Assembly (NCBI RefSeq): GCF_000013225.1
Contig: NC_007776.1
Location: 825,277-889,276, forward strand
Source: Synechococcus sp. JA-2-3B'a(2-13)
GTDB lineage: Bacteria > Cyanobacteriota > Cyanobacteriia > Thermostichales > Thermostichaceae
Length of the DNA: 64,000 nt
Direction of reading: 5' to 3'
The notes below the pieces were generated by a model that saw only the letters and a program-made list of their open reading frames with translations, was not told the origin of the DNA and did not search any database. Positions 40,762-53,463 of this stretch are shown here, in pieces (positions within the stretch are counted from its first letter, which is position 1; every line of letters starts with the position of its first letter). The position numbers and the translations under genes are program-made.

Positions 40762-41909
40762 GTTTCCAATTCTATAGATCCCCCCGAAGGAAAAACCCCG
40801 CCTTATTGGCGGGGGATTTTTTGTGGCTATAGGGTTTCCAATTTCTAGGGATCCCCCCGAAGGGGGAACAGCTTCGATCCAGCTCACGAGAGCGAGGATA
40901 CGAGCAACATGTTTCCAATTTCTAGGGATCCCCCCGAAGGGGGAACGGAGTTGGAATGGCAACGCAGGCTAGCAGGGTGTCAAGTTTCCAATTTCTAGGG
41001 ATCCCCCCGAAGGGGGAACGGAGTTGGAATGGCAACGCAGGCTAGCAGGGTGTCAAGTTTCCAATTTCTAGGGATCCCCCCGAAGGGGGAACACATATTG
41101 GCGGCAGGGCTTGCCGACCTTAATGGGCAGCGTTTCCAATTTCTAGGGATCCCCCCGAAGGGGGAACGATATAGGCATGATTTCTTCCTAAGATAGGAAA
41201 GTTTCCAATTTCTAGGGATCCCCCCGAAGGGGGAACGTTCCATATCAACTCCTCCCTTATCGGGGAATAAAGAACAGTTTCCAATTTCTAGGGATCCCCC
41301 CGAAGGGGGAACACCCAGCGTTACAGGCCTTTTCCACGGCTGCTGCCGCTGTTTCCAATTTCTAGGGATCCCCCCGAAGGGGGAACATGGTACTGGCAAA
41401 CCTGGAACGGTTTGCCAATCAAGTTTCCAATTTCTAGGGATCCCCCCGAAGGGGGAACCCAAGCGAAAGGTGCCGAGGAACTCTCAGAAGTGGACGTTTC
41501 CAATTTCTAGGGATCCCCCCGAAGGGGGAACCTACCAACCTGGGTACCCGCGCTCCCGGAGACTCAACCGTGTTTCCAATTTCTAGGGATCCCCCCGAAG
41601 GGGGAACTCGGTGTACCAGGTCACAATTTTCCGTCACCTAGAAAGTTTCCAATTTCTAGGGATCCCCCCGAAGGGGGAACGGTCAGCTGGATAGAAGCTG
41701 GCCGGTTCATCCGATCTCGTTTCCAATTTCTAGGGATCCCCCCGAAGGGGGAACTTAATCGTCTACACTACATGATCCGGCTCCTCGTCACCGCACGGCA
41801 GTTTCCAATTTCTAGGGATCCCCCCAAAGGGGGAACGGGGGAGGTTGGTTGGGAGGTTGGTGGGAGTTAGACTGTTTCCAATTTCTAGGGATCCCCCCGA
41901 AGGGGGAAC
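40762..41909 (-). CRISPR. CRISPR array, 36-base repeats, 15 full copies plus a degenerate terminal copy
   Basis: In plus orientation each repeat starts GTTTCCAATTTC and ends GGGGGAAC. Read on the minus strand it ends ATTGGAAAC, like the 3' handle of type III repeats, so the array is taken to be transcribed on the minus strand from a leader at 41910-42160. Full repeats start at 40834, 40911, 40984, 41057, 41132, 41201, 41277, 41351, 41423, 41496, 41572, 41645, 41719, 41801 and 41874; the 14 spacers are 33-46 bases. Each repeat RNA can form five C-G pairs closed by a UUCG tetraloop. The repeat at 41801 has A for G in the loop region. Spacers 40947-40983 and 41020-41056 are identical. Distal copies at 40762 and 40729 are degenerate. 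Confidence 0.98.
40791..40822. terminator. Bidirectional intrinsic terminator at the distal end of the CRISPR array
   Basis: Stem CCCCGCC / GGCGGGG with loop TTATT, followed by GATTTTTT on the plus strand and preceded by AAAAA, which gives a U-run on the minus strand. It sits between a degenerate repeat (40762) and the first full repeat (40834) and can end both the CHAD mRNA and the array transcript. Confidence 0.85.
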
Positions 41910-42160
41910 TCTACCCCTATTAAACCCAAGCAGGGCAAGGAATGCAAGACCCATTTGCGAGGGGGTCGGTCGAAGAGGGCAAAGAAGAGCTTGGGAGAGG
42001 GGGGTGAGAGGCCTGAAAGCCTTGTGGCGCAAGGCATCGAGCGGGTCAACGAAAGAATCGGCCTTTGCGGGTTTTGGCGAGGCGCTCGCAAAAGCGTTGA
42101 TACCGTTTTTGTGTGCTTTTGAGAACATCAAGTACTGAAGTGGGTGGAGAGTTGCTTGAG
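41910..42160 (-). promoter_or_regulatory. CRISPR leader
   Basis: The 251 bases between cas2 and the leader-proximal repeat carry no gene and, by position and orientation, are the leader holding the array promoter and the integration site. Unlike many leaders it is not AT-rich. The plus strand has purine-rich runs. No promoter boxes could be assigned with confidence. Confidence 0.6.
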
Positions 42161-42439
42161 CTAGACAACGATCGAGTGGGGGGGTGCAGTTAAGGGGGGC
42201 CCACCCCAGATTTCCACTTGGTCAAGGGCGTGGCTGGTGAGGGGATAGAAGCGGACGCTGTCTTCATCGGGCTTGACCCTTTTCCGGAGCCGTAGCTTGA
42301 GCTCCTCGAACTTGTCTTTGTCGAGGACACACTCGAACACGCTGTATTGCACGCGCTTGCCGTAGCCTTCTAGCAGGTCGGCAATTTTCTTGCGGCGCTT
42401 ATCACAAGGGGTGTCGTAGGTAACGACATAAAGAAACAT
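42161..42439 (-). CDS. cas2: CRISPR adaptation protein Cas2
   Basis: A 92-residue protein beginning FLYVVTYDTPCDKRRKKIA, with the conserved Asp at the end of strand 1, then YGKRVQYSVFECVLD, the standard Cas2 ferredoxin-fold wording. Its ATG overlaps the cas1 stop as TGATG. Cas2 dimers bridge two Cas1 dimers for spacer integration. It is the last gene before the leader. Confidence 0.96.
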   Translation of the reverse strand: MFLYVVTYDTPCDKRRKKIADLLEGYGKRVQYSVFECVLDKDKFEELKLRLRKRVKPDEDSVRFYPLTSHALDQVEIWGGPPLTAPPHSIVV

Positions 42440-43428
42440 CAGCGAATCCGGTAAGGCTGATACAGGTCTTGAGGATTATAGACAGAATGCTTAAATTTCT
42501 TAACCTGCTGCGTCAGCAAATCCCAGCGGGGTTGATCCCCATCGGGGGTTTGGATGGATCCCTCCATTCTTTGGATGAAAGCTGTAAGGTACTTTTTCCT
42601 GCCACTATCACTTAGAAAACAGCCACCATCGCGATACTCAAAGTCTTCTTCGATGTTCAAAATGCCCTTGTTGATCAGCCAGAGGACTATTGAATCTACA
42701 ATAGGCGCCCGAAATTCTTCCAGTAAGTCCGAAACCAGAGCAGCATGGCGTTCACTGCTAGCGTGCAAGCAACCCTGATAGGGATCCAAATCTTGCAGCT
42801 CAATCAGGGTTAATAGATGGTTCCAGAGCACCATGTAGCCAAAGCTGAGCATGGCATTAACCGGGTTAGTGGGCGGCTGTCGAGTGCGGTTAAGCAAAAC
42901 AAAGCCCCTTTGCTGAAGGCAATTTCCCAATTCCGGGAAATACAGAGCCGCAGCCGCTCCTTCAATGCCCCGCAATTGATCTAGAGACTTGGCCTCAAGA
43001 GCTTGAGCAGCCAAATGTTCCAGACTGCGCAGGGTCAGATCCCCTGTTTCAGTGGGGCGTTGCCTGAGCTGCCTCATCAGCAGCACCCGGCTATTGAGCA
43101 GCTTGGCTCGCACCATCTGGACTGCCGTTTGCAATCGCCATTCTTCAGGGAGCGCTTGTTGCAAATGAGCTAAGCGGCGGTACCCCCTCTCTATAGGAAC
43201 AAGGCGACCATAGCAATAGCCTAGCCGGGAGAGATAGGCAATAGGAATATTCCGCCTCAGGCACGCTCTCACTACGTCTGTGGTGACCTGGGATCGGCCA
43301 AAGATTAAAATTTGCTCCAGCAAGGGTAGAGGCACCTCCTGCAAGAGCGACTCGCCCAAATAGACCATTACGAACTCTTGCTTAAGGCTTAGCCTACACC
43401 CCTGCTGAGAGACATATAAAGTTCGCAT
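42439..43428 (-). CDS. cas1: CRISPR integrase Cas1
   Basis: A 329-residue protein. The N-terminal beta domain starts MRTLYVSQQGCRLSL; the catalytic helical domain has Glu156 (LRGIEGAAAALYF), His222 (GCLHASSERHAAL) and Glu237 (DLLEEFRAPIVD) as metal ligands. The start overlaps the upstream stop as TAATG. It is not fused to a reverse transcriptase, so spacers are expected to come from DNA. A full adaptation module beside a cmr operon suggests the array is, or was recently, active. Confidence 0.96.
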   Translation of the reverse strand: MRTLYVSQQGCRLSLKQEFVMVYLGESLLQEVPLPLLEQILIFGRSQVTTDVVRACLRRNIPIAYLSRLGYCYGRLVPIERGYRRLAHLQQALPEEWRLQTAVQMVRAKLLNSRVLLMRQLRQRPTETGDLTLRSLEHLAAQALEAKSLDQLRGIEGAAAALYFPELGNCLQQRGFVLLNRTRQPPTNPVNAMLSFGYMVLWNHLLTLIELQDLDPYQGCLHASSERHAALVSDLLEEFRAPIVDSIVLWLINKGILNIEEDFEYRDGGCFLSDSGRKKYLTAFIQRMEGSIQTPDGDQPRWDLLTQQVKKFKHSVYNPQDLYQPYRIR

Positions 43429-43727
43429 TATTCGTCATGACGACGCAGATCTTCAGCGCCTCGCCTCTGATCTATGGCATTGCCGGGTTTAGAGCGGCCA
43501 CGCTCCGGTAAAATCTCCACATCAATTTCAGGACTTGACAAGAAACCCATCACGATCTCTGCCAGACTGCCCGAAAAGAAGCTGGCAATCGCGACAAGAA
43601 CGGTATTGGTAATCACGGCTGCCAATCCCAAAGGAGCAATTAGCAGGATGGCCAGCGTGATCGAGCCGTTGACCACAGCTGTAACAAGGTTTCTAAGAAC
43701 TTTGGCATTGATCCTCTTTTTGGACAT
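43428..43727 (-). CDS. Small membrane protein of the Csx18 type
   Basis: 99 residues from the ATG at 43727, six bases after a GGAGG ribosome site. Two hydrophobic segments (SITLAILLIAPLGLAAVI and TVLVAIASFFSGSLAEIVMG) flank a short turn, and the C-terminus is charged and Arg-rich. Size, the IAPLGLAAVI text and position between the effector genes and cas1 match Csx18, a membrane protein associated with type III loci, as I remember the family. Its function is not established. The stop overlaps the cas1 ATG, which ties it to the adaptation module. Confidence 0.55.
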   Translation of the reverse strand: MSKKRINAKVLRNLVTAVVNGSITLAILLIAPLGLAAVITNTVLVAIASFFSGSLAEIVMGFLSSPEIDVEILPERGRSKPGNAIDQRRGAEDLRRHDE

Positions 43728-43756
43728 TTTATTCCTCCAGAGATTCTCCAAGATCT

Positions 43757-45610: not shown

Positions 45611-46252
45611 TTAGGAATTGCGAAGCGTTTCCCGAAATTCGCGCAACATAGCGCTGGTGCCAATTTCTAAGGCGCGTCGAATGAGTTGAGGCACAAGCCT
45701 GGGGATGTCGAAGTCTGGGAAAAGTCGGCTGCAGCTCGATTCTACGTAGTCTTCTCCCTGCAGAATAAATATCCGCAAACTTCGCTCACCCAAGAGCCAA
45801 ACTTCCGGCACGCCAATAGCTTTATAGGCATCGATAAAGGTCCGGGAAGTAACGTCGGACTCAATGGCCAGATCAGGCGGAGGCAACAGATCGACATCGA
45901 TCCTTCCCTCACACCCTCGCACCTGCTCTAGGTGATGGACATAGAAGCAGGTGTAAGGCTCCACCCCAGCACTACCAGACTTTTTAAGGCTTGTTGAGCC
46001 AAAGTCTTCCCAGTCTCTCCCTTGAGAATCGAGAATGGCTGAGACAATGTAGCCGGCAATGCGATGAGGGCGCTCGTGTTTGGATAAGGGAGACATAATC
46101 TCTAAAGTGCCGTTGTAATAGGCAACGCGAGTGTGGCGATCTTCGCCCAGCTCTTCCAGAATGCTCTCAAAGTCTTGCCAAGTCAGCGAATGGATAACCA
46201 CTTGGCTTCCTTCATACAGGGAAATAGACTGGATTGGAACAGCTACACTCAT
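45611..46252 (-). CDS. Uma2-family PD-(D/E)XK nuclease inside the cmr operon
   Basis: A 213-residue protein of the Uma2/DUF820 family, abundant in cyanobacteria. YYNGTLEIMSPLSKHE is the N-terminal motif; RIDVDLLPPPDLAIESDVTS holds the putative catalytic acids, and YKAIGVPEVWLL is the C-terminal signature. The usual Lys of the nuclease core is Arg here (SRTFIDAY). The ATG overlaps the cmr5 stop as TAATG, so it is translated with the complex. It may be an extra effector or a passenger; no CARF or other sensor domain is present. Confidence 0.85.
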   Translation of the reverse strand: MSVAVPIQSISLYEGSQVVIHSLTWQDFESILEELGEDRHTRVAYYNGTLEIMSPLSKHERPHRIAGYIVSAILDSQGRDWEDFGSTSLKKSGSAGVEPYTCFYVHHLEQVRGCEGRIDVDLLPPPDLAIESDVTSRTFIDAYKAIGVPEVWLLGERSLRIFILQGEDYVESSCSRLFPDFDIPRLVPQLIRRALEIGTSAMLREFRETLRNS

Positions 46253-46668: not shown

Positions 46669-47439
46669 CTAGTTCAAAGACAGCTCCACAAAGCCTCGGC
46701 CCAAGCTTTCCTGGCCGCCAATCTGCATAATCTGGTTGGATTGCAGCAGCTTTTGAAACTCTTCTGCTGTCTGTCGAGAACTGCCATTTGCTTGGGCTGT
46801 AACCCCCCAGGTAAAGTACATCAAGCTATCGGGAGGAATAGCCTCTTCGTAGCGGAAGCCTCCTTCCACAACCTTGTGCTCGCTAAGCTTGACTTTCACC
46901 TGCCGCCACAGGCTCATTTGAATGAGGGTGGCACAATGCTGATCGGGTAAAACAATCACGCGACTGATGTTGGGGTCTTTGGTGTAGCTCTTCCATTCCG
47001 ACCATTGTCGAAGACCCTCTTTGAGAATGGCATCTTTGAGGTAAATGGGTCGGTCGGCCTTCAAGCTCGTACTGTAGGGATCCGGCACTGACAGATTCTG
47101 GCCTGTTAGCCGCAGCCAGCGCTTGAGCAGAAGCGGGCAGCTTATCCACACCACCCCGTGGCTGAGGGAGGGCACCGGGATCCACAGCAAAGAGCCATCT
47201 CCAATCCAAATGGATCCTTGGGTAAGCTGATCCCCTTCCCCAATTTCGTTGCCAAAGAGCTCAAATTTTTTGTCTTTATCGGCCACGCTGGCCCGCAACC
47301 TGCCCCGAATGGTGCTGGAAGGGATGTAGGGCAAATGGGTGTGGGATTCGCGGGCAATGCCCAAGAGGTTGCCTTCTTGGGTGGTGCCGCCAGTGTGCAG
47401 GGGAGTCAATAGATGGAGGTAGGCAATCTGAAAAGTCAT
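46669..47439 (-). CDS. cmr4: Cmr4, Cas7-type backbone subunit; catalytic Asp apparently replaced
   Basis: A 256-residue RAMP protein. YLHLLTPLHTGG opens the fold and LPYIPSSTIRGRLRA follows the thumb-loop region; IGGQESLGRGFVEL is the C-terminal Gly-rich loop. Cmr4 forms the repeated backbone and normally cuts target RNA every six bases with an Asp in a VDxPIxRE motif (Asp26 in Pyrococcus furiosus). Here the aligned text is GNLLGIARE, with Leu where Asp is expected. The protein is also shorter than the usual 280-300 residues. Backbone function seems intact; slicing is doubtful. Confidence 0.85.
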   Translation of the reverse strand: MTFQIAYLHLLTPLHTGGTTQEGNLLGIARESHTHLPYIPSSTIRGRLRASVADKDKKFELFGNEIGEGDQLTQGSIWIGDGSLLWIPVPSLSHGVVWISCPLLLKRWLRLTGQNLSVPDPYSTSLKADRPIYLKDAILKEGLRQWSEWKSYTKDPNISRVIVLPDQHCATLIQMSLWRQVKVKLSEHKVVEGGFRYEEAIPPDSLMYFTWGVTAQANGSSRQTAEEFQKLLQSNQIMQIGGQESLGRGFVELSLN

Positions 47440-47486: not shown

Positions 47487-51610
<4,124 letters not shown>

Positions 51611-51812: not shown

Positions 51813-53147
51813 CTACGGAGAAGTGGAAAGATCCCCTTCCAACTTCCCTTCTGCCCAGGTCAATTTGGGAAACAGCTCTTCCAGGCCAGGCAGCAGGTCT
51901 TGCAAAACAAAGCTTTCTAGAGCTTCGCTGTTCAAAGGGTCTGGATTCATCTGCACATGGGCAACATCGTTGCGGTACTGGCTGAGGCGAGACCAGAGAT
52001 CGGCAAGCTGCTTGGCGTCGGGCACATGGGCGGTAATAGGAGGAAGCGCCTGGGGCTGGTCTTCCCGTGGGATGAGGGATCGGCCCGATTCGCCAGTCGC
52101 AGGGGGATCTCCAAGGGGCTGGTCTTCTCGTGGAATGAGGGATGCCAACTGGTGTTCAATTCCCTGCCGCTCTTCTCGTTCGAGGTAGTTTTGGATCCCC
52201 TCACAGAGGCAAAGGGCGGAGACCACCCACTCCCGGGCCAGTAGAAGAGCTTGGGTGATGAGGCGCTTTTCTACATACCAGCGCAGCAGTTGAAATTGCT
52301 TTTGAACTTGGGCTTTGGGATCCGAAGCCCTGTCCGCGGGTAGAGCCAGTTGGCTGTAGCTATCCTGAATGCTTCGCAGCAGCAGGCCAAAAGGCTTGGC
52401 AAATTGACCCACCTCTTGCTCCAGATCCGCGGTGGAGTGCTTTTGCAAATTGGGCAAGTCCTCTTTTAGGAGATTGACAGGTCTTACCAGTTCAAGAGAG
52501 CGGGAAACATTGCGGATGGCTCGGCCAAAGCTTTGCAGCCGAGTAGGTCTGGGATCCCCTTTGCCAGACTTTTGTCGGCGGTAAAAGTCCCGTTGAACCG
52601 TATCCAAAAGTTGACCCAACTCCAGCGCCGAGCCGGTGCTGATGAATTTGTCGGTAGCCGTCAGCCAATCCAAAAGACGAAGGGCGGGGGTGAGATCGAT
52701 AATGGGGGTTTCCGCTTGGCCAGAGCGGTACAGACCATAGTAGAGACCCTGAATCTCTACATTTTTGGCCTTGCGCAAAAGGGCAGCTCCCAAGAGCACC
52801 AGCACGGGGATGGAGCGAAAGGCGTGGGTGATATCGAAAACCAGCCGCGTATGGGGCTCGATGCTATCGACCAGCACATCGAAGATCTCCCAGGTCTCTG
52901 CCTCGGTTTTCCCTTCAGGAATGGCCTTGGCAATTTTCTCCACGTGGGGGGGTAGGCAGTCCTGTAGATGCTTCCAATGGGTGTCATGTGCTTCTTGGGT
53001 TAGCAGCACAATCACCCTCTCGATGTCAAAGAGCTGACAGAGGGCTTTGGCAACATAACGGGTTCTATCGGCTTTCCGCTCCCCAAAAACATACACCGTC
53101 TCGCTGTAGGGGCTGGTGCCTAGAGTGGTCAAAAGGGTATTAGCCAT
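51813..53147 (-). CDS. csx1: CARF-HEPN ribonuclease of the Csx1/Csx2 family
   Basis: The ATG at 53147 gives 444 residues. The N-terminal CARF domain starts LLTTLGTSPYSETVYVFG and contains the DxTHxFR motif FDITHAFRSIPVLV (about 104-117) of Csx2-type proteins, which bind cyclic oligoadenylate. The C-terminal HEPN domain has YRNDVAHVQM, the R-X4-H active site near residue 400. The linker contains a small duplication, the text SLIPREDQP occurring twice. Activated Csx1 cuts RNA non-specifically and slows the cell. It is the first gene of the minus-strand CRISPR series. Confidence 0.9.
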   Translation of the reverse strand: MANTLLTTLGTSPYSETVYVFGERKADRTRYVAKALCQLFDIERVIVLLTQEAHDTHWKHLQDCLPPHVEKIAKAIPEGKTEAETWEIFDVLVDSIEPHTRLVFDITHAFRSIPVLVLLGAALLRKAKNVEIQGLYYGLYRSGQAETPIIDLTPALRLLDWLTATDKFISTGSALELGQLLDTVQRDFYRRQKSGKGDPRPTRLQSFGRAIRNVSRSLELVRPVNLLKEDLPNLQKHSTADLEQEVGQFAKPFGLLLRSIQDSYSQLALPADRASDPKAQVQKQFQLLRWYVEKRLITQALLLAREWVVSALCLCEGIQNYLEREERQGIEHQLASLIPREDQPLGDPPATGESGRSLIPREDQPQALPPITAHVPDAKQLADLWSRLSQYRNDVAHVQMNPDPLNSEALESFVLQDLLPGLEELFPKLTWAEGKLEGDLSTSP

Positions 53148-53463
53148 AGGGATCCTCTCGATGACGGCTTTCAAGCATTGAAGCACGGGCATCTTCAAGC
53201 TACTGCAGCTTGGAAGCCCCCCCTTCTCAAGTTGCCTGGAGAGGGTTCTGGGTTGAATGTTGCCCTATCCTCTCCCGAAAAGTGGCATCCTCTGCTCAGC
53301 CGGTGCCAGAAAGATGGGGATCTCTACCCCCAAAATTGAGTGGAGCCATCTTGCCGCTGGATTTGGATCCCTGCTCGACAACTGTTTCAAAACGGTGAAG
53401 GTGGGGGATGTCAGAGCTAGCCTAGACAGAGATTCGGCCATCCTAAACAACGGGGATCCTGTG

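Follow-up and report, generated by a model that had tools for sequence, protein, structure and literature searches.

In the 3,046,682-base genome of the hot-spring cyanobacterium Synechococcus sp. JA-2-3B'a(2-13), a type III-B (Cmr) operon of the subtype III-Bv, belonging to a CRISPR (clustered regularly interspaced short palindromic repeats) locus, is located on the minus strand of the 64,000-nucleotide (nt) stretch analyzed here (NC_007776.1, positions 825,277 to 889,276; hereafter, the window). The initial annotation of the window had proposed that Cmr4, the Cas7 backbone subunit of the effector complex, lacks the catalytic aspartate for cleavage of target RNA. Alignment with Pyrococcus Cmr4 bore this out, and the Cas10 and Csx1-type proteins encoded in the same operon retain their signaling motifs. 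What the earlier account did not contain is that, judged from the alignments, the Asp-less state is lineage-wide and old, and not peculiar to this genome. There is, at the level of sequence, a type III-B lineage that lacks the slicing residue and retains the signaling motifs.

Residues 21–31 of the window Cmr4, QEGNLLGIARE, correspond to ELGVVDQPIQRE in Pyrococcus Cmr4; no acid occupies the Asp26 position, and the loop is shortened by one residue. In the alignment with the P. furiosus Cmr4 sequence HPGSGTELGVVDQPIQRE, no window residue stands opposite Asp26, the gap lying between Leu25 and Leu26, and the counterpart of Asp26 is Leu25 when residues are counted back from the conserved Arg. Because of the shortening, replacement of the Asp by Leu and deletion of the Asp amount to the same thing; the substitution by Leu put forward in the initial annotation thus stands if one counts from the Arg, but can equally be read as a deletion. 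The Pro of the PIxRE motif is lost as well (Gly27). The catalytic Asp before PIxRE, by which RNA-slicing Cas7/Cmr4 proteins are recognized, is absent here. The sole acid between His15 and Arg30 is Glu22. A misalignment hiding an Asp was ruled out, since this interval holds none. We also asked whether the Cmr6 half of the 607-amino acid (aa) fusion protein of the operon supplies an Asp in compensation; its aligned loop, ESMLLPAFDPLG, has an Asp at the position of the RE of Cmr4, not at the catalytic place, although this comparison is not decisive.

Cmr4-family matches were obtained in 89 of the 386 genomes of the phylum that were searched. The Cmr4 proteins aligned were those of the loci from this phylum search, of a pattern search of genome contigs and of plasmid records; those scoring >250 bits to the window protein were defined as clade A. 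Some loci were counted twice, once per genome collection, and clade A comprises 74 sequences at <90% identity. The comparison with related cyanobacterial proteins, suggested as a structure-based check at the time of the initial annotation and made here on sequence alignments, agreed with the claim: Asp26 was absent in 107/107 clade-A and 9/9 clade-A2 proteins. Among the other 56 aligned proteins of the cyanobacterial phylum, the position was a gap in 50, another residue in 2 and Asp in 4, three of which come from a different class of the same phylum. Asp was present in all 13 Cmr4 proteins sampled outside the Cyanobacteria, namely Pyrococcus and 12 from plasmid records spanning Deinococcota, Bacteroidota, Thermomicrobiota, Pseudomonadota, Bacillota and Campylobacterota.

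A tree of 102 Cmr4 rows was built with the loop columns left out, and the trait therefore could not shape it. On one side of a single branch fell 82 Asp-less cyanobacterial rows (Shimodaira–Hasegawa-like approximate likelihood ratio test, 99), and the tree requires two state changes, the main loss and a separate one in loci L049, L066 and L081. Since this tree was built by a quick method and the Asp-bearing outgroup has long branches, it is likely, though not proven, that the Asp was lost once, long ago, in the cyanobacterial lineage. The three loci with the separate loss belong to another class of the phylum and, unlike the main lineage, showed no GGDD motif among their long same-strand open reading frames (ORFs). 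In four further loci (L124, L126, L128 and L129), Csm3-like homologs of Cmr4 read GNNNP(I/V)FR, with Asn for Asp, next to a GGDD Cas10. No phage-borne relatives were found in scans of viral sequences. The pattern search of genome contigs returned only cyanobacterial loci, but its patterns were built from clade A, so this does not show absence from other phyla.

The remodeled loop is strongly conserved. Its mean entropy is 0.16 bits, compared with 1.19 bits for the whole protein, and values as low occur in only 7 of 246 windows along the protein, the loop included. A ratio of nonsynonymous to synonymous substitutions (dN/dS) of about 0.19 to the nearest relative (0.049/0.254) indicates that the gene is under purifying selection. 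A strain-specific mutation or sequencing error was rejected, because the Cmr4 of a second genome, 92% identical, has the same loop text, because of this low dN/dS, and because all 107 relatives above 250 bits share the state. The predicted structure of Cmr4 has a mean predicted local distance difference test score (pLDDT) of 84 and superimposes on Pyrococcus Cmr4 (4w8w) with a Z score of 21.6 and a root-mean-square deviation of 2.7 over 224 residues. In the model, therefore, the repeat-associated mysterious protein (RAMP) fold is intact, as had been supposed for the rest of the protein.

The signaling parts of the lineage are widely kept. The GGDD cyclase motif was found in 128 of the 131 Asp-less loci with a scorable Cas10; the remainder were one AGDD, one sequence cut short and one broken motif. 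The last is that of L189, a clade-A locus of Oscillatoria sp. SIO1A7, in which Cas10 reads SPSD where GGDD is expected. The HD pair was present in 64 of 93 clade-A loci with GGDD; in the others, this site is substituted or gapped, or the Cas10 is partial. In named relatives, PADLOC detected CARF-HEPN genes adjacent to the gene for the fusion protein. Elsewhere in the same genome, locus L131 (G000:C1:587500-607400) encodes a type III-D system with Csx10, several Cas7 genes, a GGDD Cas10 and Cas6. Its Cas7 loops retain Asp (GSDLPVLKD and LADKPLLKD), and the genome thus encodes an Asp-bearing type III system alongside an Asp-less one. A Csx3 gene is located near the III-D locus, at genome position 608489; the Csx3 family has been characterized as a ring nuclease for cyclic tetra-adenylate (cA4) (PMC9676260).

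The output of cyclic oligoadenylate (cOA) is coupled to target cleavage, and slower cleavage in Sulfolobus Csm gives more cOA (PMC6053304). In Pyrococcus, Cmr4-D26N abolishes the target RNase and retains the DNase (PMC7192623). One would accordingly expect a naturally Asp-less complex to go on signaling for the time that its target is bound. On balance we give an even chance to the reading that in the III-Bv lineage, which lacks the catalytic Asp of Cmr4, the Cmr4 filament is non-slicing or very slow, and that immunity operates via signaling, with or without DNase activity. According to this reading, binding of invader RNA guided by CRISPR RNA (crRNA) would activate Cas10 in the usual way, the Cmr4 filament would grip the target with cutting absent or very slow, and immunity would rest on cOA signaling to Csx1, plus the Cas10 DNase where HD is kept. 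The signal would be ended when the target is released or degraded by host RNases, and by ring nucleases, for which the Csx3 of this genome is a candidate. Stricter self-discrimination through a longer crRNA tag may be a further off-switch; Synechocystis CRISPR3 crRNAs carry a 13-nt tag, not an 8-nt one (PMC3575380). We infer the absence of slicing in the window complex from its sequence, and it is plausible that such a complex is competent for signaling. The initial annotation had argued that a non-slicing backbone would keep Cas10 signaling on: its signaling half is supported at the level of motifs, as GGDD, HD, CARF and HEPN motifs are all kept, and the logic fits the Sulfolobus and Pyrococcus studies, while the loss of slicing that it presupposes is less firm and Glu22 may replace Asp26. 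Tentatively, and with slightly more doubt than belief, we extend the proposal to photosynthetic cyanobacteria at large: almost all of their type III-B systems would trace back to a single complex in which slicing was lost but the cyclase, and often the DNase, was kept, a sense-and-signal system with an off-switch other than target cleavage (e.g., ring nucleases, the 13-nt tag or host RNases).

Several observations weigh against a loss of slicing. The Pyrococcus D26N strain could be obtained only with HD and Csx1 inactivated, for which its authors blame constitutively active complexes (PMC7192623), so that HD and Csx1 in a naturally non-slicing system would call for another safeguard. His15 and the Glu of YEE, both conserved in Asp-bearing Cmr4 proteins, are retained, which would fit a site that remains in use, and we found no target-cleavage assay for any clade member in the literature consulted. 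Moreover, the role of Asp26 could have passed to Glu22, which does not vary within clade A; residues 19–25 of the model have a pLDDT below 50, leaving the loop too uncertain to place Glu22. Cmr4 may still slice, the metal being held by Glu22, which immediately precedes the GN of the shortened loop, instead of by Asp26, an alternative that we regard as a possibility to be taken seriously, if not a probable one. Glu22 is the only acid gained near the loop, in 107/107 clade-A proteins, compared with an acid at that position in 1/17 Asp-bearing ones; Gln21, Gly23 and Asn24 are likewise invariant across clade A. An acid within two residues before GN occurs in 115/117 A/A2, 35/35 clade-C and 10/10 clade-B proteins, compared with 4/17 Asp-bearing ones. 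However, this acid sits at differing positions in A/A2, B and C, the Csm3-like group has none, and L097 and L098 read QAGN, the latter adjoining a Cas10 with intact GGDD and HD. In addition, all Asp-less rows may stem from one event, in which case the correlation with Glu22 may reflect a single change.

Slicing might also have been lost without any new regulation, Cmr4 serving as a scaffold and host RNases such as RNase E clearing the targets, so that the system would behave in vivo as other type III systems do. Maturation of III-Bv crRNA is reported to rely already on host RNase E, and it also uses RNase J (PMC13383573), but action of host RNases on a Cas10-bound target is hypothetical, and we consider this explanation improbable. 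It is very hard to credit that the system is degenerate or dying and that the Asp was lost through decay: the broken motif of L189 is what decay would produce, but the 107 conserved homologs, the invariant loop, the low dN/dS and the intact operon with Cas1/Cas2 and an array speak for maintenance.

The catalytic Asp has been described as common to all type III active sites (PMC11026444), and target cleavage is regarded as the timer that ends type III signaling. A whole natural lineage that has no Asp and keeps GGDD, and often HD, contradicts the generalization of a shared Asp as far as the sequences go, and lends itself to testing the function of slicing. Since the equivalent Pyrococcus mutant could not be made with intact effectors, these cyanobacteria should have either another off-switch or a moved acid, and either outcome would be informative.

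The features of the locus are listed in Table 1. The genes on the minus strand are arranged in the order Csx1-type CARF-HEPN, Cas10, Cmr3, Cmr4, putative Cmr5, Uma2-family protein, the Cmr6-type fusion, Csx18, Cas1 and Cas2, followed by the array. Membership of type III-B follows from the recognition of Cas10/Cmr2, Cmr3 and Cmr4 by family models (TIGR02577, PF09700 and TIGR02580); Cmr3 scored under the NCBIfam cut-off and far over the Pfam cut-off. The putative Cmr5 matched nothing in the family-model scans. The Cmr1 half of the fusion protein is presumed by analogy with the published Cmr1-6 fusion of Microcystis (PMC11855584). No cas6 was seen in the window operon, the Cas6 gene noted above being near the type III-D locus. 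The Uma2-family nuclease-like gene also occurs in several relatives at varying positions, for example between cas10 and cmr3 in L228.

Table 1. Features of the III-Bv locus, in window coordinates
Feature	Coordinates	Strand	Basis and remarks
Csx1-type CARF-HEPN effector	51813..53198	-	TIGR02221, E=3.9e-32; PADLOC CARF-HEPN, E=2.6e-111
Csx1 DITHA (CARF)	52821-52835	-	Sequence
Csx1 RNDVAH (RxxxxH, HEPN)	51957-51974	-	Sequence
cas10/cmr2, 995 aa, HD and palm domains	48623..51610	-	TIGR02577, E=3.7e-52; PADLOC Cas10b
Cas10 HD motif, His14-Asp15	51566..51571	-	Sequence
Cas10 GGDD cyclase motif, residues 751-754	49349..49360	-	Sequence
cmr3	47487..48884	-	PF09700, E=1e-98; true start may be downstream of the listed ORF start
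cmr4 (Cas7 backbone subunit, 256 aa, without catalytic Asp)	46669..47439	-	TIGR02580, E=3e-36, 125.7 bits vs cut-off 87; RAMP fold
Remodeled loop, Cmr4 residues 21-31	47347..47379	-	Alignments; Asp26 position at Leu25/Leu26 (47362-47367)
Glu22 codon, candidate substitute for Asp26	47374..47376	-	Clade-A alignment
Putative cmr5/cas11, 130 aa	46252..46644	-	Gene order and conservation only; homologs in clade-A loci
Uma2-family gene, within operon	45611..46252	-	PF05685, E=2.8e-12
cmr6-cmr1 fusion (Cmr1 half presumed), 607 aa	43757..45580	-	PF03787 (RAMPs); TIGR01898 (Cmr6) below its cut-off; homologs in relatives
csx18	43428..43751	-	NF040558, E=3e-22
cas1	42439..43428	-	PF01867, E=2.4e-84
cas2	42161..42439	-	TIGR01573, E=6.2e-18
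CRISPR array, 15 repeats and one degenerate	40763..41912	-	RF01371; minus-strand repeat end ATTGGAAAC

Assignment to subtype III-Bv follows from comparison with CRISPR3 of Synechocystis sp. PCC 6803 (pSYSA), whose Cmr4 (Sll7087) is 63% identical over 91% of the window query, falls in the same clade of the tree and has the same QEGNLLGIARE. The gene sets match: the Cas10 has both the HD and the GGDD motif, a single large RAMP protein is encoded after cmr4, and csx18-cas1-cas2 are adjacent. The window differs in having Csx1 upstream of cas10 and Uma2 within the operon, both missing from the corresponding places in the 6803 stretch read. The literature found has no report of slicing by either system. 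Nor did we find a paper stating the loss of the Asp in III-Bv; the search did not cover key III-Bv papers, which might mention it.

The Cluster 4 type III-B system of Microcystis aeruginosa FACHB-524 shares the Cmr1-6 fusion, Csx1 and Uma2 with the window, and its complex without Csx1 protects Escherichia coli from T4, with Asp-based cleavage by Cmr4 supposed (PMC11855584). The exact Cluster 4 repeat is found in Microcystis loci L114, L115, L117 and L146-L148, and Cmr4 of the first three reads QEGNLVGIARE. Judged from these repeat-sharing loci, the Asp is very probably missing from the Cluster 4 Cmr4 as well, and the protection would be better read as HD DNase activity or signaling than as Asp-based slicing. 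The III-B Cmr system of Pyrococcus furiosus resembles that of the window in the Cmr4 fold, the Cas10 with HD and GGDD, and Csx1, but its Cmr4 has the catalytic Asp26 and its Cmr1 and Cmr6 are separate proteins. In the 2025 classification, Cas7 catalytic residues are lost in III-G, III-H and type VII, and the palm of III-G and III-H is also inactive (PMC12669027). The window system is similar to III-G and III-H in that the catalytic residues of Cas7 are not conserved, but its Cas10 palm is not inactivated in the same way, because it retains GGDD, as do nearly all of the Asp-less loci.
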